Virus record (IMG/VR): IMGVR_UViG_3300044237_000085
Span: 1 to 23,803 of that record
DNA length: 23,803 bases
Strand: one strand, 5' to 3'
Origin: a virus
Shown here: positions 1 through 9,016 of the stretch, in pieces
How the letters are laid out: each line of letters starts with the position of its first letter
How positions within the stretch are numbered: the first letter of the stretch is position 1
Translations under genes and position numbers: made by a program
The notes under the pieces: generated by a model
Told to the model about the DNA's origin: nothing
What the model saw: only the letters and a program-made list of their open reading frames with translations
The model's database searches: none

Positions 1-503
1 TGTAGCTCGCCGCCTCTAATCTTAAAATAGATATTTGTATTACAAGGAATATCTTTACTTGGGCTACCAAGATCATTAACAGGATCCCACATTTGTAATA
101 CAACCCGACGTGAGTCAGGGTCTCTTTCTAACATATTTACGACGTGCCAAAGCTGATCGTAATCAAACTGTTTTCTCCAACGATATCCGTATGAACCGTT
201 TAAAGTTTCATTATCGTCTGAAAATGCAGACATACCTGCATTAAAATGTTTTAGCTTCATTAAGTTGCGAGAACTACCTAACATCCATATCGCTTCATAT
301 AAATGAAAAAAAGGATTAGCGTCTCGTTCGGGATTAAACAGCACTCGCTGCCAAGGTTTGTTGTAGATAGTAGTTACTGGAGTACGACACTCCATCGTCG
401 GGCCATTACGACTTTCTTGTTCTCGATAATTTACTGGGGATCTAAATAAGTCGACCCCTCTTAATAAAGCGTCGTTTACATTGACGGCGCTAATTATTTT
501 CAT
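1..503 (-). CDS. Thymidylate synthase-like protein (possible dUMP hydroxymethylase), 3' part missing
   Basis: About 167 N-terminal codons are present and the gene runs off the left edge. Thymidylate synthase hallmarks are visible when translated: the fold segment YGYRWRKQ, the phosphate-binding arginine pair in DPDSRRVV followed by MWDP, and the catalytic cysteine at residue 154 in DIPCNTN. Family members transfer a one-carbon unit from methylene-tetrahydrofolate to C5 of dUMP or dCMP; phage relatives make 5-hydroxymethyl-dUMP or -dCMP instead of dTMP. The proximity of an aGPT-PPlase gene makes a dUMP hydroxymethylase attractive, but that is inference: the C-terminal residues that help decide substrate and product are outside the window. 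The ATG start has GGAG seven bases upstream and overlaps the preceding gene by 14 nt. An ordinary thymidylate synthase is the main alternative. Confidence 0.85.
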   Translation of the reverse strand, partial: MKIISAVNVNDALLRGVDLFRSPVNYREQESRNGPTMECRTPVTTIYNKPWQRVLFNPERDANPFFHLYEAIWMLGSSRNLMKLKHFNAGMSAFSDDNETLNGSYGYRWRKQFDYDQLWHVVNMLERDPDSRRVVLQMWDPVNDLGSPSKDIPCNTNIYFKIRGGEL

Positions 504-729
504 AAAGACTCTCCGTTTGTAATATAAGAATATGTTCGATCTGCAAACGATTTAAATGCAATCTGCCTGAGAAATACGCTGCCCAATGAATCGCGTTAAT
601 TGCGTCCCGCCAGGTGTTTGGAGTGCGTTTATCTTTTATAGAGTATTGTAAAAATGATCCATAACAATGCATGACAAAATCTATATCTTCGTTTTCTAGG
701 TCTATAATTAGTTGTTTAAGTTTTCCCAT
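490..729 (-). CDS. Small hypothetical protein (79 aa)
   Basis: I do not recognise this family. The reading frame lies between the aGPT-PPlase-like gene and the thymidylate synthase-like gene and overlaps both by 14 nt, which supports a real, translationally coupled gene. I chose the ATG at 729 because it follows AGAGGA closely; an in-frame ATG at 741 and a TTG at 750 would add 4 or 7 residues but have no visible ribosome binding site. The protein is soluble and mixed helical in appearance, with an Asp/Glu-rich stretch near residues 12-17 (LENEDID) and a Trp/His-rich middle (NTWRDAINAIHW). No transmembrane segment, signal peptide or metal motif is seen. Its position between two putative thymine-modification genes suggests a role in that pathway or in nucleotide metabolism, but nothing in the sequence proves it. 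Confidence 0.7.
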   Translation of the reverse strand: MGKLKQLIIDLENEDIDFVMHCYGSFLQYSIKDKRTPNTWRDAINAIHWAAYFSGRLHLNRLQIEHILILQTESLYENN

Positions 730-1621
730 TCTTCCTCTCATATTTTTCAATTAACGGTCGATCTTTTTGTGAATAATCGTATACGCTTCGTGTCCGACCT
801 TGTCCGTGTAATATCCGAGAGTATTTATCGAATTCACATAACCCGCCTTCGATCTCTCGCATCTCAAAAGGTTTATCAAACTGGCTCAAATCAATATTTT
901 CTGTACACCATTTATAAAGTACTTGCATCTCACCGTTCCAATCCCAACTGCGTCTACAAAAATCTAACGGTCTACCCGTCAATCTATTTAATCCTCGCAT
1001 CGCTCCTGGCCCAGCATTCGCCCACGAACAAATATCCTCAGCGTTTTCTAATAAATAGGTATGTCTTAGATCAGAAACTAGCTCGTAAGAAACGAATGGC
1101 CCGATATAAGGAAACCGAAGAAGGTAATGCCATGCGTCCGATAAAGATTTAAAATGTCCGAAGTCTTTTAGTATTCGCTCTCGTTCGACCCATATATGCG
1201 TAATACATTCAGCTACACCTGTTACTTTATCCATACGGTTAGGAGTTTTGACGATATACGCACCTGTAATCCATTTCGGTTGCTTTTTTACTTTTTCAAT
1301 AGCTTTTAGGCGATCCCATTCGATATGTAAGTTATGGTCGAGTAACGTATGTCCTGTTTCTATAAGATTAAAAAATCGAAAGATAACCGTCGCCATCAAT
1401 ACCTCTGGCTTATTGCGCAGCGGCTCTCGAATATGTTCTCTAAACCAACGGGTAGTCCGATCGTCTTCTCGGAAAACTTGACAGAATTTAAACTCTTGTA
1501 GTATCGGGTCGAGAGTCCAAGGCGGCTCTAACTTCTCTTCCTCTTTTACTCGACGTATTCGTTCACGTTCTTCGATCCAATAAACGTAACGGTCTACCTC
1601 TGCCGGTATAAAGTTAGTCAT
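716..1621 (-). CDS. Alpha-glutamyl/putrescinyl-thymine pyrophosphorylase (aGPT-PPlase) family protein
   Basis: A 301-aa protein that matches from memory the aGPT-PPlase / 5-hmdU DNA kinase helical-domain family, a DNA-glycosylase-like helical fold found in phages with hypermodified thymine. Visible family blocks in order: FCQVFREDDRTTRWF near residues 46-60, FRFFNLIET at 81-89, ITGAY at 118-122, a helix-hairpin-helix-like PYIGPFVSYELVSDLRHT at 171-188, WANAGPGAMRGLNRL at 200-214, and a C-terminal CEFDKYSR with a following GQGRTR at 262-278. In the proposed pathway, hydroxymethyluracil in DNA is phosphorylated and pyrophosphorylated, and an amine or amino acid then displaces the pyrophosphate. 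The start is set at the ATG forming TAATG with the methyltransferase stop; a GTG 21 nt upstream is possible but overlaps more. No P-loop kinase domain is fused to it. Exact reaction and clade are inferred. Confidence 0.8.
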   Translation of the reverse strand: MTNFIPAEVDRYVYWIEERERIRRVKEEEKLEPPWTLDPILQEFKFCQVFREDDRTTRWFREHIREPLRNKPEVLMATVIFRFFNLIETGHTLLDHNLHIEWDRLKAIEKVKKQPKWITGAYIVKTPNRMDKVTGVAECITHIWVERERILKDFGHFKSLSDAWHYLLRFPYIGPFVSYELVSDLRHTYLLENAEDICSWANAGPGAMRGLNRLTGRPLDFCRRSWDWNGEMQVLYKWCTENIDLSQFDKPFEMREIEGGLCEFDKYSRILHGQGRTRSVYDYSQKDRPLIEKYERKNGKT

Positions 1622-2481
1622 TAGATTTTTCTTAAAATCCACGCACAGTTATTAGAAACTTCTGGATAAAACGTAGCAGCAATTACTCGTAAAAACTGTC
1701 TACCGTAGCGTTGTTCGAGTAATTCGTATTGATCAGGCCACCAACGCCATTCGTGATCGTCTTCGTCTTGAGCCATCGCTTTTTTAAGTTTCGGTAACTG
1801 ACAAAAAGTGCCAACTACAGACTGTATTTTCCAGCCTCTAGTTTCATCTTCGAGTTCTTCTTTAAGCTCTTCGAAACCCCACTCGTAAACGTGGTCTTCT
1901 GGTAATTTATCGTTAGACCCGTCGTGGTTCGGAGTAGAAACGTAAATCAATCCTCCTGGACGCAATACACGATTAGCATCGTCGAGCCATGGTGCAATAA
2001 ACTCGCGTCCCATATGTTCGATTACTTCTGTAGTCCAAAAGAAATCTATAGAGTTATCGGGTAAGTCGAAGGTAGGGTTTACTGTAAGGTCTTGAATATC
2101 AATCTTGCCATTAAAATTAGCAAACCATGTAGAATCTTCAACAAGCCCAGTAAGGCTGCTATACCCTGCTTTTTCATTAAGGCACGCAGGGTCGATATCT
2201 ACGCCGCGATATGATCCGATAATGTCAGACTTTTTAACAGTGTAGGCTTTATATAAATTACGCAGAACCCATACTTCACCGCATCCTGCTTCTAATACAT
2301 CTATCGGTCGCCCTAGTTTTTTTGCTTCTTCGATACACAAGGTAGATATCTTGTCGTACCGAGTCATATGAGTAATTTCGTCTGGACGCCAATTACCTAA
2401 CATATTACCGCTGGCGATATCCATACGAGTGTTTTTACTATCGTTAATATTTTGGTCAAGCGTTTTTCTTATAGACGCCAT
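1621..2481 (-). CDS. Class I SAM-dependent methyltransferase (Methyltransf_11/25 type)
   Basis: A 286-aa protein with a Rossmann-type methyltransferase core: motif I VLEAGCGEV (residues 62-70), acidic motif II GVDIDP (93-98), the motif IV region DFFWTTEVIEH (146-156) and the post-motif LRPGGLIYVSTPN (173-185). It lacks the DPPY/NPPY and PC motifs of standard DNA adenine or cytosine methyltransferases, so the substrate is more likely a small molecule, protein, tRNA or an already modified group. The C-terminal third is rich in Asp, Glu and Trp. The ATG has a strong AGGAG six to seven bases upstream and is preceded by a 58-bp gap with a repeated leader element, suggesting its own promoter or leader. 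It is coupled (TAATG) to the aGPT-PPlase-like gene, so a role in tailoring modified thymine is plausible but unproven. Confidence 0.85.
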   Translation of the reverse strand: MASIRKTLDQNINDSKNTRMDIASGNMLGNWRPDEITHMTRYDKISTLCIEEAKKLGRPIDVLEAGCGEVWVLRNLYKAYTVKKSDIIGSYRGVDIDPACLNEKAGYSSLTGLVEDSTWFANFNGKIDIQDLTVNPTFDLPDNSIDFFWTTEVIEHMGREFIAPWLDDANRVLRPGGLIYVSTPNHDGSNDKLPEDHVYEWGFEELKEELEDETRGWKIQSVVGTFCQLPKLKKAMAQDEDDHEWRWWPDQYELLEQRYGRQFLRVIAATFYPEVSNNCAWILRKI

Positions 2482-2508
2482 AAGATTCTCCTTTCTACGG
2501 GTTACTAC

Positions 2509-2538
2509 TTTACCTTATACTTTTTACCAAAGTAAAGG
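2509..2538 (-). promoter_or_regulatory. Repeated leader element (copy 1), imperfect inverted repeat
   Basis: In the 58-bp gap before the methyltransferase gene, the + strand reads TTTACCTT, then 14 nt, then AGTAAAGG. The outer arms can pair (CTTTACCTT with AAAGTAAAG, one mismatch). A closely similar element sits at 7298-7332, at almost the same distance (about 24-28 nt) upstream of the first gene of the leftward operon. On the minus strand it offers a -35-like TTTACT and, 18 nt later, a weak -10-like TAAAGT. It could be a phage promoter, an operator or an RNA leader. Confidence 0.4.
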
Positions 2539-2539
2539 A

Positions 2540-4033
2540 CTAAATCTGGAAATACTTTTGTGTTTGAGGTTCTATCAAAAACAAATTCTGTTTTGCTCTA
2601 GTTAGCCCTACATAAAAAACTCTGGACTCGTCGTCAGGGTTAGCTTGGTAAGACTTATAAATTCGGTTTGATATATCGGTTAGTAAAATTACATTTTCTG
2701 CTTCGCCTCCTTTAGCTGCATGAATCGTCGATAGTTTAATACGAGGCTCTTTAGTAATTTTTTCTCCCCGTCTAAGCATCGCTCGGATATAACTCCGTTC
2801 AGATACAGAGATACCGTCGAAAAGGTCGTACCAATATTCTTGTTTAAGTTCAGGTATATACGATTGCGCTTCTTCAAATGAGATATTACTATCAAAGTCG
2901 TTTCTTTCTAGGGAGGTAGGTACGCTAACCCGCATATAATTTAAGACTTTGATAAGATCTACGAGGGGTATCTCGCCGCCTTTGCGTAAAGTCTCCCAAT
3001 CACGTACCGCTTTTACTTTCTTTTCGGATACTGAGTTGCGGTTTTTGGTTTTATAAAACCATCCTTCTGACCGACAGTGTTCTTCGATACCGTTTAGCAA
3101 GTAATTAGTCCGTGCTAATACTAACCAGTCTCCTGTTTCCATATCTATAGATTCGTAAGACTTTTCCCACGATACATGGCCTGCTTCTTTTCTAGGGTTC
3201 CAAGTCTTTTGTACCCGTGAAGCTACTTGTCCGATACAACGCTCGGCTAAAGTGTGGATAGATTTAGGGATTCTATAGGACTGTTTAAGAACCATCGCAT
3301 CTTTAGAATTACGAATCAAATAATCTACGTCAGCGCCAGCCCACCGATAGATAGCTTGGTCATCGTCTCCTGCGATATAAATACGATCAGCTGATTCACA
3401 TAACTTACGAACGACCGCCCACTGTAACGGAGATAAATCTTGCGCCTCATCTACGAACATAACGTCTAATCTAGGAGCGCGACCACGATCTAAAAACAAC
3501 TGCAACATATCGGTATAGTCGATAAGTAATCTGTCGTTTTTAAATAATCGCAAACCGTTAGCGAATCGTTCTAAGGCAAACCAACCTACGACATCATCAG
3601 ATTCATGCCACTGCGTTTCTAAACTAACTTGTCGCATCCTCGCTAAGTTTTCTATGAACATCAGCCGGTCATCTTTCGATATACCTGAGACGTGTCCATC
3701 ATCCGAACTAATAGAACCTGTTAGTCGTAAGTTTAGTTTTTGGTTTAAATCGTTAAGGTCTCTAGCTCCCATTACGCTATCTTTCGATAATCCTAGTTGG
3801 AAAAAACATAGCGAATGTAATGTTCTAAAAAACGGCAGTTGGTTATTAGTAATCCCGAATCTCGACATCGCTCGGCTTTTACCCTCTTGCACCGCTTGTT
3901 TGGTAAACGTAAAGAACCCTATATCTTCTGGGCAAGTGCCTCGATCTAATTCTTCTTCTAACAAACCTAGTAGCGTGCTGGTCTTTCCAGTTCCAGGAGG
4001 GCCGAGGATTATTTGTGCATCTGACTTTAGCAT
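2540..4033 (-). CDS. UvrD/Rep-like superfamily 1 DNA helicase
   Basis: A 497-aa SF1A helicase that would unwind duplex DNA 3' to 5' using ATP. Motifs seen in order: Walker A GPPGTGKT (residues 11-18), motif Ia FTFTKQAV, Walker B VDEAQD (194-199), motif III GDDDQAIYRWAGA (222-234), motif IV QSYRIP (251-256), motif V STIHAAKGGEAENVILL and motif VI FYVGLTRAKQNLF near the C-terminus. The protein is about 200 residues shorter than bacterial UvrD, mainly because the 1B and 2B insertions are reduced, which is usual for phage versions. The start ATG overlaps the primase stop (TAATG), pointing to coupled production of a primase-helicase pair. It could serve replication fork unwinding, recombination or repair; the window has no other leftward helicase. 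Confidence 0.92.
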   Translation of the reverse strand: MLKSDAQIILGPPGTGKTSTLLGLLEEELDRGTCPEDIGFFTFTKQAVQEGKSRAMSRFGITNNQLPFFRTLHSLCFFQLGLSKDSVMGARDLNDLNQKLNLRLTGSISSDDGHVSGISKDDRLMFIENLARMRQVSLETQWHESDDVVGWFALERFANGLRLFKNDRLLIDYTDMLQLFLDRGRAPRLDVMFVDEAQDLSPLQWAVVRKLCESADRIYIAGDDDQAIYRWAGADVDYLIRNSKDAMVLKQSYRIPKSIHTLAERCIGQVASRVQKTWNPRKEAGHVSWEKSYESIDMETGDWLVLARTNYLLNGIEEHCRSEGWFYKTKNRNSVSEKKVKAVRDWETLRKGGEIPLVDLIKVLNYMRVSVPTSLERNDFDSNISFEEAQSYIPELKQEYWYDLFDGISVSERSYIRAMLRRGEKITKEPRIKLSTIHAAKGGEAENVILLTDISNRIYKSYQANPDDESRVFYVGLTRAKQNLFLIEPQTQKYFQI

Positions 4034-5538
4034 TATAGCGGCGAGTCGTTAAATTCTGGCAGGGTATGAGATTCAATTTGTGTTTGAAACTCAGGTATAT
4101 GCCAGACGTTTACACCCTTACCTTTTATATTGAAGAAATGCGCTTCGCCTCCCATATTTTTGAGCTTCGCCGTAAGTTTATTTCTAGGGTAATCCCTAAA
4201 GTTTTTACGGTGTAAAAAGTCCATTAAATCTGCTAATCTAAAATACGTTCTAGTATTTTCGTTCCAAGGTTTACCAAGTAATAATTCGTCACGTTCTCTA
4301 GCAGGGCGTTCTGTACAAAAAGTTTCTAACAATTCGTTAAAGTGACCTTCGGTAGACGAATTTGTTAAATTATCTAATAGTTGTTGAATAATAGTTCTCC
4401 ATACGTTATCCCGTACTTTCGGTGGGATAATATTTAAACTGTCCATACATTTACGTTGGAACCGAGTCTGGTTTAATAATTCTTCTGTTTCTAACTCAAG
4501 CCTACCGCCCTCGACATCTAAGAACCAGATAGGTGGGTCACTGTTTTGTTTTGTCAAATTACTAAATAACGGCGTCCCTCCTGACGCACCTATCCCATAC
4601 TTTCGGGTACGGCATAACGGACTATTACAATGTCCAGCTATCGGCTGATCGTTACATTTATAAAAGTAATCTTTTTTCTGTACTTGTTTGGCTACACCTA
4701 ATACTTCTTGCGCACTAAGTGGCGGGTTAAAGTGTTTATGATTAATCTGTTCTATACGTTTTTCCCAATCGTCTGGAAATTTCTTACGCAAGAATACACC
4801 TACGTTAAACAATCCAGAGTTACGCATACCTTTCGGAAAGCCTTGCGCTATCAGGTGTTCTAAACACGGAGGAGAATGGTCTAACCATTCTGAATCTTCA
4901 ATAATCGGGGTAACTTCTAGTTTTTCTAAATCTTCTTCTGTAAGGATAATATCATCACAATACTCTAGAAATTTCTCAGGAGTTAATACCGCTCCCGTAC
5001 CGCTAAATCCGTAGCTAGTAGCGTCCTCACCGCCGAAATACGGCATCTGTAACGGACTACCCCTATCCCCTCGCTCTAATAAAAGTTGGGTTTGTTTTGG
5101 AAATACTTCTGATTGTCCGAAACCTATCGCCGCTGATACCTGTCGCAATTTACGTTGCATAAGGGAACACGGGACAGGGTCGAATACAAATAAAAATATA
5201 TGAGCGCCACCGCTTTTAGATCGCGTTACGACCATAGGCAACTTAAACTTTTTTATCTTTTTTGATAGCCCTTTTAAATCTAGAGGATAGTCGTCTATAT
5301 CTATAGCGCCCCAAACACACATATTATTTTCGTCTATCGGAACGATTCCTAGGCTTCTTTCTCCTTTTAAATGCTCTGCCCAAATATTTATTAATTCTTT
5401 TTGATTAAGCGTTTGTGAAATTGTTACATACTTACCTTTTGCTTTACCGTCTTCTCTCGTTTCTTTCGTCGGGGTAAAGACACTATAACCGTGTCTCAAC
5501 CCCGCGAAACGGGCGGCAAATTGCTCCTGTATCGACAT
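4033..5538 (-). CDS. Archaeo-eukaryotic-type primase (TOTE-type AEP domain)
   Basis: A 501-aa protein with an N-terminal AEP fold. Motif I is AIDIDDYP (metal-binding D80, D82, D83), motif II is SKSGGAHIF (residues 107-115, with H113), and a downstream EVFPKQ (144-149) fits this primase group. It would make primers, and perhaps extend DNA, at the replication fork. After the catalytic domain there are four conserved-looking cysteines (C225, C295, C304, C309; the last in HCNSPLCR), which could bind zinc or an iron-sulphur cluster. The C-terminal 180 residues look like a helical, perhaps winged-helix, module typical of phage primases. The ATG has AGGG six bases upstream. The gene lies 17 nt after the SSB-like gene and is coupled to the UvrD-like helicase, which supports a replication role rather than a stand-alone defence system. 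Confidence 0.85.
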   Translation of the reverse strand: MSIQEQFAARFAGLRHGYSVFTPTKETREDGKAKGKYVTISQTLNQKELINIWAEHLKGERSLGIVPIDENNMCVWGAIDIDDYPLDLKGLSKKIKKFKLPMVVTRSKSGGAHIFLFVFDPVPCSLMQRKLRQVSAAIGFGQSEVFPKQTQLLLERGDRGSPLQMPYFGGEDATSYGFSGTGAVLTPEKFLEYCDDIILTEEDLEKLEVTPIIEDSEWLDHSPPCLEHLIAQGFPKGMRNSGLFNVGVFLRKKFPDDWEKRIEQINHKHFNPPLSAQEVLGVAKQVQKKDYFYKCNDQPIAGHCNSPLCRTRKYGIGASGGTPLFSNLTKQNSDPPIWFLDVEGGRLELETEELLNQTRFQRKCMDSLNIIPPKVRDNVWRTIIQQLLDNLTNSSTEGHFNELLETFCTERPARERDELLLGKPWNENTRTYFRLADLMDFLHRKNFRDYPRNKLTAKLKNMGGEAHFFNIKGKGVNVWHIPEFQTQIESHTLPEFNDSPL

Positions 5539-5555
5539 TGCTCACCCTTGTAAAA

Positions 5556-6344
5556 CTAAAACGGTACGTCTTCGTCATTGTCCTCGACGTTAGTAACGAC
5601 ACCCTCTTGCTCATGTTTTACTTCAACTTCACCAGACCTAGCGGCCTTCATAAAATCTAAAGCTAACATTGCTAACGACATAGGGGTCGGTCTGCTCTTT
5701 TCTATAGATAAACCCATCCAGCTATATTGGTCGTTCGATTGTGGGATCGTAGTAAGGTTATAGATATAAGAAAACATCGGAGCCGCTACGGTATCACCTT
5801 TCGCATTTTTAACGCGAGCGTTATTAAGCATCGTATTCCAACGACGACTAAACCCTAGTTGAGATGACGTAAGACTAAGTAATACTTGTTCAGGTACAGC
5901 TTCATCTGCTACAAGAATACAATAATATTCCGCAGTTTCTACTATCTCATTATCGTTACCCCAGATAAAACGACCTTTATCGTTTTTAGTACACTCTTTG
6001 AGTACAGACGCAGAGTGTTCGTCAGATACAAAACCGCCACCTTTTTCTCTCGGAATCCATTCGATATACTTTTTCTTATAAGCACACGGGATAATCGCTA
6101 CGCCTTCTGTACCGTCATATACCGATTCGGTAACGGTATTAAACAAGTTGCCTTCTTCAGCCCCTTGTATATATTTACCGTCACTTTTCTTTAGTTGTGG
6201 GGACATTGATTGCAGCACCCGTAAAAACGGTATCGCGTAATCATCTGCCCCAGCTTCTTCCAACCCTGTACCCGCCGATAACAAATCGTCATCGAAAGGG
6301 ATAATGTCTGAGGACTGAGCCTCAACAACTTTCTTATTAGCCAT
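5556..6344 (-). CDS. SSB-like protein with acidic C-terminal tip (262 aa)
   Basis: The family is common in marine phages but I cannot name it with certainty. The main hint is the C-terminus: about 15 acidic, disordered residues ending DNDEDVPF, which closely resembles the DDDIPF tip that bacterial SSB uses to recruit partner proteins. The body (residues 35-230) has several beta-rich, aromatic segments (VAIIPCAYKKKYIEWIPRE, EYYCILVADE) compatible with an OB-fold, and a helical LTSSQLGFSRRWNTML stretch. It lies between the 193-aa protein (8-nt gap upstream) and the primase, where a single-stranded DNA-binding protein would be expected. AGGT precedes the ATG. An alternative is a recombination mediator or annealing protein. 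The assignment to ssDNA binding is inference from tail and context. Confidence 0.75.
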   Translation of the reverse strand: MANKKVVEAQSSDIIPFDDDLLSAGTGLEEAGADDYAIPFLRVLQSMSPQLKKSDGKYIQGAEEGNLFNTVTESVYDGTEGVAIIPCAYKKKYIEWIPREKGGGFVSDEHSASVLKECTKNDKGRFIWGNDNEIVETAEYYCILVADEAVPEQVLLSLTSSQLGFSRRWNTMLNNARVKNAKGDTVAAPMFSYIYNLTTIPQSNDQYSWMGLSIEKSRPTPMSLAMLALDFMKAARSGEVEVKHEQEGVVTNVEDNDEDVPF

Positions 6345-6352
6345 ATATACCT

Positions 6353-6934
6353 CTATTTGATTTTGGCGCGGGATCCGACGAATATCCCGAATAGGTCTGC
6401 AGGAAGGTCTTTCCCGCTCGTCATTTGTTCTTTCACAAAAGCGTTTAGCGTCTGTGGATGAACACTCTCTTTAACAGCAGGGTCTAACCCTTTCTGTTTG
6501 AGACTTTGAATAGCGTCATTAGCTTTATCGCCTTCGTCCTTACCGAAACGTAAGTTGACTTCGTGTTTGATAATGCCGCCATGATTATTAGATAAAAGCC
6601 ATGCATGGGCTGCTTGACGATTTTTTTCAGAGATATAACCTTTATAGAATTCGTTAATAGTTATTTTCGCACCATTAGTAAGTACAATCTCTTTGAGGTT
6701 AGCTGTTTGCATCGCCTCTGGTAAAGATTCTTCTTCGTACACTCGTAAGGCTTCTTTTTGTGTTTTTAATAACACTTCCGTTTCTTTAACTTCTTCTTGT
6801 AGTTTTTGTAACTGTTGAGCTATAGAACTAATTTTTGCGTACTCGCTATCGAGCGTCGTTTCGTTCCATTCCTCTTGAGAAGAAGTACCTGTTAGTTCTT
6901 CAAACGATAAAGTTTTATCTTCATCACTGGACAT
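6353..6934 (-). CDS. Conserved phage protein with N-terminal coiled coil (193 aa)
   Basis: I recognise the general pattern as a protein frequent in phage early operons but no function is known to me. Residues 1-30 are acidic and likely disordered. Residues 31-70 form a clear coiled coil (SIAQQLQKLQEEVKETEVLL), which suggests an oligomer. The C-terminal domain (78-190) is mixed, with LTNGAKITINE, an NHGGIIKHEV turn, and VHPQTLNAFVKEQM before DLFGIFVG. No catalytic or metal site is obvious. GGAG lies eight bases before the ATG, and the gene overlaps the upstream 116-aa gene by 11 nt and precedes the SSB-like gene, so the three probably act together in DNA replication or takeover of the host. 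Confidence 0.8.
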   Translation of the reverse strand: MSSDEDKTLSFEELTGTSSQEEWNETTLDSEYAKISSIAQQLQKLQEEVKETEVLLKTQKEALRVYEEESLPEAMQTANLKEIVLTNGAKITINEFYKGYISEKNRQAAHAWLLSNNHGGIIKHEVNLRFGKDEGDKANDAIQSLKQKGLDPAVKESVHPQTLNAFVKEQMTSGKDLPADLFGIFVGSRAKIK

Positions 6935-7274
6935 ATAAATCTCCTAAATCAGTTTCGTCAGGGTAGGTATTTCCACGAATAGAAAAAGCTACTGGGTAGT
7001 AAGTCATATGCTGACGATCCCATTTTAAAACTCTATATCTACCGTTTTTCTGTGCAGCTATCGCGCAACAAATTCCTATTGCTGCGGGGTCGCCCATTAA
7101 CAATAAATAATCGTCGTCATTAAAATCTAGTAGTTTTCTTTTGAGCCTGTTAACTTCAGGGCCAGTAGATAACATAAGATTGGTTTTTGCTGGTAGCAAA
7201 AGTTCTAAGTCGCCGTACTTATGAGCAGGGACTAAATTACGTCCAGGAACTTCTTGGACTACATACACTGTCAT
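6924..7274 (-). CDS. Conserved phage early protein (116 aa), first gene of leftward operon
   Basis: A 116-aa protein of a family I have seen in marine phages without assigned function. It opens with a beta-rich YVVQEVPGRNLVPAHKYGD, has a basic helix (NRLKRKLLDF), and then LLLMGDPAAIGICCAIAA, a stretch that resembles a nucleotide- or ligand-binding loop followed by a helix. The end is RVLKWDRQHMTYYPVAFSI. There is no transmembrane segment. A strong ribosome binding site (AAAGGAGA) lies just upstream, and the ATG is the first start codon after the divergent intergenic region, so this is probably the promoter-proximal gene of the replication operon. Confidence 0.8.
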   Translation of the reverse strand: MTVYVVQEVPGRNLVPAHKYGDLELLLPAKTNLMLSTGPEVNRLKRKLLDFNDDDYLLLMGDPAAIGICCAIAAQKNGRYRVLKWDRQHMTYYPVAFSIRGNTYPDETDLGDLYVQ

Positions 7275-7297
7275 TTCTAATTTCTCCTTTATAGACG

Positions 7298-7332
7298 TTT
7301 ACCTTAACCTAGCGCCTTTTCGAGAGTAAAGG
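7298..7332 (-). promoter_or_regulatory. Repeated leader element (copy 2)
   Basis: The + strand reads TTTACCTTA near 7298 and AGTAAAGG at 7325-7332, the same arms as in the element at 2509-2538 but with a 19-nt instead of 14-nt spacer. It lies 24-58 nt upstream of the 116-aa gene start. The similarity continues toward the gene through the ribosome binding site (TCTCCTTT on the + strand in both leaders). It is likely a shared transcription or translation signal of leftward genes. Confidence 0.4.
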
Positions 7333-7464
7333 GCTATCTCCTATTAGCTATCTAGAAATTTTATTTTTTATAAAAAAATTTATAAATCGCTTTAATAGAC
7401 TAATACCTCTAATAGATTCAATGTTAAGTGCTTGTTCTTACTAACGATTTCATAGAGAGGAAAA

Positions 7465-7481
7465 CTAATAGGAACTATTAG
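7465..7481. promoter_or_regulatory. Perfect dyad CTAATAG-GAA-CTATTAG, operator candidate
   Basis: Two inverted copies of the heptamer that recurs through the intergenic region are separated by 3 nt, giving a perfect 7-bp arm dyad. It lies about 90 bp upstream of the SNF2 start and about 190 bp upstream of the leftward operon. A dimeric DNA-binding protein site is the simplest reading. Confidence 0.45.
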
Positions 7482-7495
7482 AAGTATTAAGAGGC

Positions 7496-7512
7496 GTCCC
7501 GTAAAACGGAAC
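7496..7512. promoter_or_regulatory. Imperfect dyad GTCCCGT-AAA-ACGGAAC
   Basis: Seven-base arms with one mismatch flank AAA. The 9-mer TAAAACGGA inside it (7502-7510) recurs at 7585-7593 just inside the SNF2 gene, where it is part of a second dyad, AAACGG-AG-CCGTTT (7587-7600). The two sites bracket the start codon of the helicase gene, as a regulator pair might. Confidence 0.35.
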
Positions 7513-7536
7513 AATTTATTTATTTTCTAAATTCTA

Positions 7537-7542
7537 TATACT
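7537..7542 (+). promoter_or_regulatory. Possible -10 box TATACT for the SNF2 gene
   Basis: TATACT lies 28 bp before the TTG start and 15 bp before the ribosome binding site, within very AT-rich sequence. No convincing -35 hexamer is found at the usual 17-bp spacing, so this could be an activator-dependent or phage-specific promoter, or chance in AT-rich DNA. Confidence 0.3.
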
Positions 7543-7570
7543 TACTATTAGAACTTAGAAAGGACTAGCT

Positions 7571-9016
7571 TTGAAATACCAATTTAAAACGGAGCCGTTT
7601 GCGCACCAAAAAACTGCACTATTACGTTCATGGAACAAACCTAATTATGGTTTTTTCATGGAAATGGGTACAGGTAAATCAAAAGTATTAATAGATACGA
7701 TCGGTATTTTGTACGGTAAAGGTGCAATTAATGCTGTTGTTATCGTAGCGCCGAAAGGCGTATATCGGAACTGGTCTACGAAAGAGATACCTGACCATAT
7801 GCCTGACTATATAGATACACATATCGCGGTATGGTCGCCTGCACCCCGCAAACAAGAAAAAGCAGATTTAGTAAAACTATTTCATACTGATTTAGATAAA
7901 CTCAAAATATTTTTAATCAACGTCGAAGCGTTTAGTACACCGAAAGGTGTAAAATTTACTGAGAATTTTATCCTCAGTCATCAAGTATTGTTCGCGGTAG
8001 ATGAATCTACAACGATTAAAAACCCGAAAGCCTCTCGCACGAAAGCGATTACGAAACTAGCTAAAAATACAAAATACCGACGCATCCTTACTGGGTCACC
8101 AATTACACAATCACCGCTAGATTTATATAGCCAAACAGAAGTTTTAGATACAAACCTTCTTGGCTATACCTCTTTTTACTCTTTCCAAAACCATTACGGT
8201 GAAGTAGTTAATCGTTATTTCGGTGGTCGGACTGTACGACAAGTCGTTGGGTATCGGAACTTAGACGAACTATCACAAAAATTAGATAGTTTTTCTTACA
8301 GAGTTTTAAAAAGCGATTGTCTAGACCTGCCGGAAAAACTTTATATCCGTCGGGATGTAACCCTTACTGCCGAACAAAAGAAACTTTACAGTGAATTAAA
8401 AGAGTTAGCGATTACTGAACTAGCTAATCAAGAAACCGTTAGTGTTACGAATGTACTCACGCAACTACTTAGGTTACACCAAATAGTTTGCGGTCATATT
8501 AAAAGTGACGACGGCATAGAAACGCCGATTAATAATAATCGTATCGACGAACTTATCGAAGTTATTGCAGAAATGCAAGGTAAAGTAATTATTTGGGCGA
8601 ACTATCGCCAAAACATTTTAGAGATAGTAGAAACGCTACAAGGTTTGTTTGGTGCGGATGCAGTAGCTTCTTATTTCGGAGATACAACTCCTGATGAACG
8701 AGAGCGTGTAATTAAACAATTCCAAAACCCTGATTCACCGCTTAGGTTTTTCGTAGGTAATACGCAAACAGGGGGTTACGGGATTACGCTTACCGAAGCG
8801 CAAAACGTAATTTATTACTCGAATAATTTCGATTTAGAAAAACGCTTACAATCAGAAGATAGAGCGCACCGTATCGGCCAAAAGAACAACGTAACTTATG
8901 TTGATCTCGTTGCTAAAGATACTGTAGACGAAAAAATCGTAACGGCTCTGCGTAATAAACTTGATCTCGCCCAAGAAGTCTTAGGCGATGATAAATGGGA
9001 AGATTGGTTAACTTAA
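7571..9016 (+). CDS. SNF2/DEAD-like superfamily 2 helicase (481 aa)
   Basis: A phage-type SNF2 helicase, an ATP-driven DNA translocase. Motifs: MEMGTGKS (Walker A, GTGKS at residues 33-37), VIVAPKG (motif Ia), AVDEST (Walker B, D144-E145, with Ser-Thr in place of the usual Ala-His), LTGSPI (173-178), IIWANYR, GGYGITLTEA and the C-terminal SEDRAHRIGQ that carries the arginine finger. No accessory domain is fused, so it is a minimal core. The start is TTG: an in-frame stop lies at 7556-7558, AGAAAGGA is six bases upstream, and the next ATG (residue 30) would delete the Q-motif region and abut Walker A. It is the only rightward gene here and its stop overlaps the end of the virion operon by 9 bp. 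Roles may include replication restart, recombination or transcription switching. Confidence 0.9.
   Translation: MKYQFKTEPFAHQKTALLRSWNKPNYGFFMEMGTGKSKVLIDTIGILYGKGAINAVVIVAPKGVYRNWSTKEIPDHMPDYIDTHIAVWSPAPRKQEKADLVKLFHTDLDKLKIFLINVEAFSTPKGVKFTENFILSHQVLFAVDESTTIKNPKASRTKAITKLAKNTKYRRILTGSPITQSPLDLYSQTEVLDTNLLGYTSFYSFQNHYGEVVNRYFGGRTVRQVVGYRNLDELSQKLDSFSYRVLKSDCLDLPEKLYIRRDVTLTAEQKKLYSELKELAITELANQETVSVTNVLTQLLRLHQIVCGHIKSDDGIETPINNNRIDELIEVIAEMQGKVIIWANYRQNILEIVETLQGLFGADAVASYFGDTTPDERERVIKQFQNPDSPLRFFVGNTQTGGYGITLTEAQNVIYYSNNFDLEKRLQSEDRAHRIGQKNNVTYVDLVAKDTVDEKIVTALRNKLDLAQEVLGDDKWEDWLT

Follow-up and report, generated by a model that had tools for sequence, protein, structure and literature searches.

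A predicted thymine-hypermodification cassette with a methyltransferase in the kinase position in a marine podovirus

Genes of the cassette

The IMG/VR virus record IMGVR_UViG_3300044237_000085 (23.8 kb, 23,803 nt; this whole stretch is called the window below) carries at its left end three genes that the original prediction had regarded as a cluster for thymine hypermodification based on 5-hydroxymethyl-2'-deoxyuridine (5hmdU): a thymidylate synthase (TS) homologue, an aGPT-PPlase family protein (aGPT1 below) and an S-adenosylmethionine (SAM) methyltransferase (MT). Pfam and PHROG matches confirmed that all three are present on the minus strand, where the gene order was primase, UvrD-like helicase, MT, PF18723 protein (aGPT1), an open reading frame (ORF) of 79 aa and TS homologue. 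The features are as follows.

1-503, minus strand: TS homologue, first 167 aa, C-terminus beyond the window edge (PF00303 44.6 bits; phrog_5131 E = 2.2e-58); predicted dUMP hydroxymethylase giving 5-hydroxymethyl-dUMP
490-729, minus strand: small ORF, 79 aa, between aGPT1 and TS and overlapping both; kept in the nearest relatives
716-1621, minus strand: aGPT-PPlase1/HMUDK_hel protein, 301 aa from ATG (308 aa from an upstream GTG), PF18723; predicted 5hmdU-DNA recognition and base-presenting subunit
1619-1623, minus strand: TAATG stop-start overlap of MT stop and aGPT1 start, read from the sequence; couples MT and aGPT1
1621-2481, minus strand: class I SAM methyltransferase, 286 aa (Methyltransf_23, PF13489, 39.5 bits; Methyltransf_11, PF08241, 34.6 bits); predicted metal-assisted 5hmdU O-methyltransferase
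2540-4033, minus strand: UvrD-like helicase (PF00580), which bounds the cassette insertion site on the upstream side
4033-5538, minus strand: AEP-TOTE primase (PF22548), 42% to the DSL-LC04 primase and 38% to that of 023Pt_psg01

The catalytic Cys154 claimed for the TS homologue was exact, being the Cys of its PCN motif, and so was the size of 301 aa for aGPT1, counted from the ATG. The junctions overlap as had been described, by the TAATG shared by MT and aGPT1 and by the 79-aa ORF, which had been missed earlier and which bridges aGPT1 and TS; this ORF gave no Pfam or PHROG family match. Ribosome-binding sites read from the sequence were good for both the MT and TS genes.

With the aGPT1 protein as query, 80 close loci were found in IMG/VR. 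The order UvrD-(PF03013 gene)-MT-aGPT1-small ORF-TS-Pam3_54-like-PolA was observed in essentially all relatives with flanks, and UvrD-MT-aGPT1-TS-PolA in the 68 loci having both flanks. Because the order is kept in ∼80 related contigs, the MT-aGPT1-TS arrangement is, on this comparison of sequences, not due to chance.

The TS homologue and its predicted product

Hydroxymethylases are known in which the W80 shield has been lost. Numbered according to E. coli ThyA, the window TS kept C146, lacked W80, and had W83 replaced by F and H147 by N. All TS homologues compared kept E58, C146 and R166 and had lost W80, with F or Y at position 83 in nearly all. At loci with both MT and aGPT1, W80 was missing and W83 changed to F/Y in 79/79 sequences, N147 was present in 79/79, and N177 in all 78 that reach this position. 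It was reported that the choice between dUMP and dCMP is set by position 177, and that position 147 separates the classes too (PMC8670742). The window copy ends before position 177, and its N177 is taken from relatives whose aGPT1 is up to 95% identical. Because W80 is missing and the full-length relatives carry N177, 5hmdU is well supported as the product, and we strongly infer that the window TS homologue would act as a dUMP hydroxymethylase.

N177 was also found in 29/29 loci with aGPT1 and a TET-associated glycosyltransferase (TAGT, PF20691) and in 37/37 loci with aGPT1 and a kinase (where the position was present), both sets having N147. The TS of MT loci without aGPT1 had T147 (76/76) and D177 (75/75), and D177 was confined to this set and one mixed locus, L151. 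These patterns indicated that aGPT1 tracks 5hmdU, and that the MT family tracks 5hmdU when aGPT1 is present and 5-hydroxymethyldeoxycytidine when it is not.

The aGPT1 protein

A profile search had been chosen beforehand as the test of the aGPT-PPlase assignment. The only Pfam match of the 301-aa protein was PF18723 (E = 6.6e-42, 144.2 bits against a cut-off of 25, covering profile positions 4-278 of 281), which Pfam names HMUDK_hel, 5-hmdU DNA kinase, helical domain. Homologues include M6 gp55, Pam3_50 (aGPT-Pplase1) and Ab18 ORF13. Together with the TS residues, this match supported the proposal that a 5-hmdUMP-synthase-like TS homologue and an aGPT-PPlase serve a 5hmdU-based thymine hypermodification.

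The structures of aGPT1 and MT were predicted by AlphaFold2 with input rows from IMG/VR only. The aGPT1 model was all helical with a mean predicted confidence (pLDDT) of 91.6, and its nearest Foldseek matches (E 0.09–0.4) included the DNA-bound archaeal 8-oxoguanine glycosylase MjOgg (probability 0.99, E 0.09) and the PaMx11 5-phosphomethyl-2'-deoxyuridine (5-PmdU) glycinyltransferase PUGT (probability 0.80). Because of these neighbours, a DNA-binding, base-presenting role of aGPT1 is weakly supported by the model.

Search for the kinase and the amino-acid:DNA transferase

The thymidine hypermodification systems of M6, PaMx11 and Pam3 resemble that of the window in the TS type (C146, N147, N177, no W80), the aGPT1/HMUDK_hel family and the location near PolA. 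They differ in having a P-loop 5hmdU DNA kinase of the HMUDK_HMUD1 kind directly upstream of aGPT1, an amino-acid:DNA transferase (AADT), and enzymes using pyridoxal phosphate, radical SAM or flavin adenine dinucleotide; the window has none of these, and a SAM MT occupies the kinase slot. The gene directly before aGPT1 in M6, Pam3 and Ab18 is the kinase, with the AADT nearby. It might be supposed that the window phage follows this M6/SP10-type route too, its kinase and transferase genes lying at another place or having diverged beyond recognition, and the MT methylating the attached amine. The constant company of aGPT1 and kinase in these three phages, and the naming of PF18723 after that pathway, speak for such a route.

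Since PF18748 alone was weak for the kinase (only 16.5 bits for that of Ab18), a 24-sequence kinase profile (A10) was built; a 14-sequence profile (A11) was used for the AADT. Among 24 relative records of 42–84 kb, the kinase was found in 0/24 and the AADT in 0/24. The controls were positive for the kinase in 6/6 cases and for the AADT in 5/6 (M6, Pam3, Ab18, L178 and L208; L212 has the kinase only), with E = 1e-49 to 1e-132. PF18748 and PF18724, the Pfam families of the kinase and the AADT, were each found in 0/30 relative records, and TAGT in 0/24 records of the window group with 4/4 controls positive. Cultured or complete relatives measure 57.6–61.5 kb, so several of the searched records are near genome size. 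These silent profiles, and the TAGT-bearing sister phages which have aGPT1 without a kinase, make the M6/SP10-type route unlikely.

The original prediction had noted that no kinase was visible in the window, which the profile searches bore out, and had considered that the set might continue to the left. The latter part was not supported, as the left side in relatives consists of the TS remainder, the Pam3_54-like gene and PolA, and the leftward check for a kinase, run through these relatives, gave the negative result above. Nor was an aminated thymine of the PhiW-14/SP10 type supported, given that kinase and AADT were not found. The cassette is read as a departure from that type, a variant of phage thymine hypermodification. 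The MT had been listed without a role; its presence stood, and its place is that of the kinase.

Several candidates for the missing enzymes were considered and rejected. That the window or the region left of it conceals a kinase or transferase was dismissed on the silent profiles and on the gene content of the left side in relatives. The ∼166-aa gene before MT in many relatives proved to be PF03013 pyrimidine-dimer-glycosylase-like, and the ∼192-aa gene before UvrD to be an AlkB-like 2-oxoglutarate-Fe(II) oxygenase (PF13532). The PF03013 gene (MNIFVTDP..., L005:8662-9162, L041:8616-9098) separates UvrD from MT in 43 of 68 relatives; it is missing at window positions 2482-2539 and in the nearest relatives. 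In many relatives the PF13532 gene stands between those for the primase and the helicase (L043:5444-6022 and others) and might provide an extra base-oxidation or repair step.

Exchangeable partners of aGPT1

A wider aGPT1 scan with six-frame profile searches of the neighbourhoods gave ∼154 loci with an identifiable partner: MT at 81, kinase and/or AADT at 43–44, and TAGT at 30. The partner classes (MT, kinase/AADT, TAGT) were mutually exclusive, with no locus having two, apart from the divergent mixed case L151 (positions 4924-8639), which combines a divergent, weak PF18723 protein (108.9 bits), an MT, a deoxynucleoside monophosphate (dNMP)-type P-loop kinase and a D177 TS. A further 10 aGPT1 loci had no partner in view, several being ended by a contig edge. 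In the aGPT1 alignment, 41 columns were common to MT-, TAGT- and kinase-associated members, and 9 substitutions were fixed in the MT class.

The aGPT1-TAGT-TS cassette of sister marine phages (L217-L248) shares the backbone, the insertion site, aGPT1 and the N177 TS with the window group. It differs in that the PF20691 glycosyltransferase and a PD-(D/E)XK (Cas4-like) nuclease, the latter after TS, stand in place of the MT; glycosylated 5hmdU is predicted for these phages. At one such locus (L240:8791-9775), a cupin-like ORF and an FkbM methyltransferase (PF05050), perhaps sugar-methylating, were observed between aGPT1 and TAGT.

The insertion site

The gap between helicase and PolA was empty or held only small ORFs in DSL-LC04, 023Pt_psg01 and HTVC027P, which have the HTVC023P-type backbone; in DSL-LC04, PolA directly follows the UvrD-like helicase. 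In the window group the same gap is filled by MT-aGPT1-TS; its content is aGPT1-TAGT-TS-nuclease in the sister group, and still others have MT-kinase-TS(D177) there. As read from these gene orders, HTVC023P-type podoviruses have a site of exchange between the helicase and DNA polymerase A genes, where the cassette sits, and the primase would place the window phage among marine relatives of this type. In work on uncultivated pelagiphages, TS and aG/PT-PPlase1 'partner genes' and a glycosyltransferase were noted at the helicase-PolA site (PMC9599517); the former are the same two genes near PolA, probably in the same wider group. The word 'methyltransferase' has 0 occurrences in the main text of that paper, and the lack of a kinase is not mentioned there.

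The methyltransferase and its putative metal site

The top Protein Data Bank relatives of the MT profile (53 family members) were HEN1 small-RNA 2'-O-methyltransferases (E ∼3e-11), and the MT motifs EVIEH and H-x-x-E aligned with Hen1. The Mg2+ ligands of HEN1 are E796, E799, H800 and H860 (PMC10781085). E152, E155, H156 and H197 of the MT match E796, E799, H800 and the bacterial/human counterpart of H860. These four putative ligands were present in every MT sequence examined that reaches them, and for the 80 loci retrieved by way of aGPT1 this is free of bias. The MT model had a pLDDT of 87.8. The MT shares with HEN1 the profile relation and the E-x-x-E-H ... H metal site, and differs in having no RNA-binding domains, in the additional conserved residues D34, H38, R41, N278 and W281, and in its phage base-modification context.

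Because RNA ends or small molecules are the substrates of its closest relatives of known structure, the MT might be thought a passenger, for example a HEN1-like RNA-end or host-directed methyltransferase with no part in base modification. Against this, a pyrimidine hydroxymethylase is always its neighbour, both in two kinds of cassette and in phage groups not related to each other. The MT is also nearly absent from cellular genomes, occurring on only 4 contigs among 84,980 bacterial and archaeal genomes, and the 2/2 of these with both flanks have the full TS cassette. Since the genomic context indicates base modification, a HEN1-type role on 2'-OH groups of RNA 3' ends is less fitting, and a passenger MT seems very improbable.

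The distant MT branch

A distant branch of the MT (21–27% identity) was found in MT-MazG-kinase-TS(D177)-dCMP deaminase cassettes, adjoining a D177 TS homologue in 75/75 loci. Phages AXL3 and PW916, both cultured, have such a cassette, as do many IMG/VR contigs. The AXL3-type cassette resembles that of the window in having, beside a hydroxymethylase, a homologous MT in which all four putative metal ligands recur; it differs by the dCMP-type hydroxymethylase (D177, T147), the nucleotide-pool genes and the lack of aGPT1. AXL3 virion DNA resisted 35 of 37 restriction enzymes, and those able to cut it recognize sites made of A and T alone (PMC7504290). This pattern and the D177 TS fit a modified cytosine, a reading made here and not by the authors of that study.

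The pool genes around the distant MTs (MazG, dNMP-type kinase, dCMP deaminase) would agree with another possibility, that the MT acts on the nucleotide (5hmdUMP or 5hmdUTP) or on another base position, with aGPT1 working separately, for instance in excising or guarding 5hmdU. The 5hmC carbamoyltransferase likewise uses a triphosphate (PMC8670742). However, the MT of the window group is translationally coupled to aGPT1 and has no accompanying pool genes, and the predicted aGPT1 fold appears related to DNA-acting enzymes; we consider this alternative rather unlikely.

Proposed mechanism and its weight

Taken as a whole, the locus is probably best explained as a cassette by which a marine podovirus of the HTVC023P type hypermodifies thymine, and in which a SAM MT has replaced the 5hmdU DNA kinase; the replacement of the kinase within a 5hmdU pathway is itself highly probable. 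The TS homologue, as its residues strongly indicate, would convert dUMP into 5-hydroxymethyl-dUMP, and the phage PolA, whose gene adjoins in relatives, may build 5hmdUTP into DNA as in known hmU phages. The aGPT1 protein, predicted to be all-helical and perhaps DNA-glycosylase-like, would then bind the DNA and present 5hmdU, a role suggested by its fold and its constant pairing with the N177-type TS. In the HEN1-like MT, a divalent metal on E152, E155, H156 and H197 may deprotonate the 5-hydroxymethyl hydroxyl, and methyl transfer from SAM would give 5-methoxymethyl-2'-deoxyuridine, an exact product to which we give an even chance. The modified base might finally block host nucleases. The MT in the kinase place suggests that the phage DNA contains a methylated base not described before, which could shield the phage.

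Several points weigh against this interpretation. In essence, the loci with MT and aGPT1 make up a single long-stemmed clade, so that locus counts are not independent and the pairing is a single replacement event rather than ∼80 independent ones. The IMG/VR records searched for kinase and AADT are not certified complete. The distant MT set was retrieved by patterns containing the ligand motifs, which makes full conservation there partly a matter of construction. The top Foldseek matches of the MT were generic class I, small-molecule methyltransferases, and the E-x-x-E-H part also occurs in UbiG-type O-methyltransferases. Because HEN1 and UbiG families both methylate hydroxyls, O-methylation is indicated; the motif would fit O-methylation generally and is no proof of a nucleic-acid substrate. 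HEN1, moreover, binds a vicinal diol, and 5hmdU has one hydroxyl. Both 5-methoxymethyl-dU and nuclease protection are predictions from sequence and models.

In the literature searched no report of methoxymethyl pyrimidines in phage DNA was found, a weak negative, as most subscription papers lay outside it. More broadly, and with slightly less than even confidence, it may be proposed that phage DNA contains O-methylated hydroxymethyl-pyrimidines (5-methoxymethyl-dU here, 5-methoxymethyl-dC in AXL3-type phages) and that aGPT1 is a general 5hmdU-presenting module with interchangeable kinase, glycosyltransferase or MT. If so, a widespread marine phage group would have a DNA base chemistry new to it, aGPT1/HMUDK_hel would be recast from a part of the kinase to an exchangeable base-presenting module, and the occurrence of TS and aGPT1 without kinase in HTVC023P-type phages would be accounted for. 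The sister MT in the cultured, restriction-resistant AXL3 makes O-methylation testable on existing material.

Two minor observations were made. One of the 4 MT-bearing contigs among the cellular genomes (L253, NZMJ01000039.1), from a Maricaulis metagenome-assembled genome (an alphaproteobacterium bin), carries primase-AlkB-UvrD-MT of the same phage backbone, which is a weak hint to the host. In the window, a SNF2-family helicase gene (7571-9016) lies on the opposite strand amid leftward genes and is kept in relatives.

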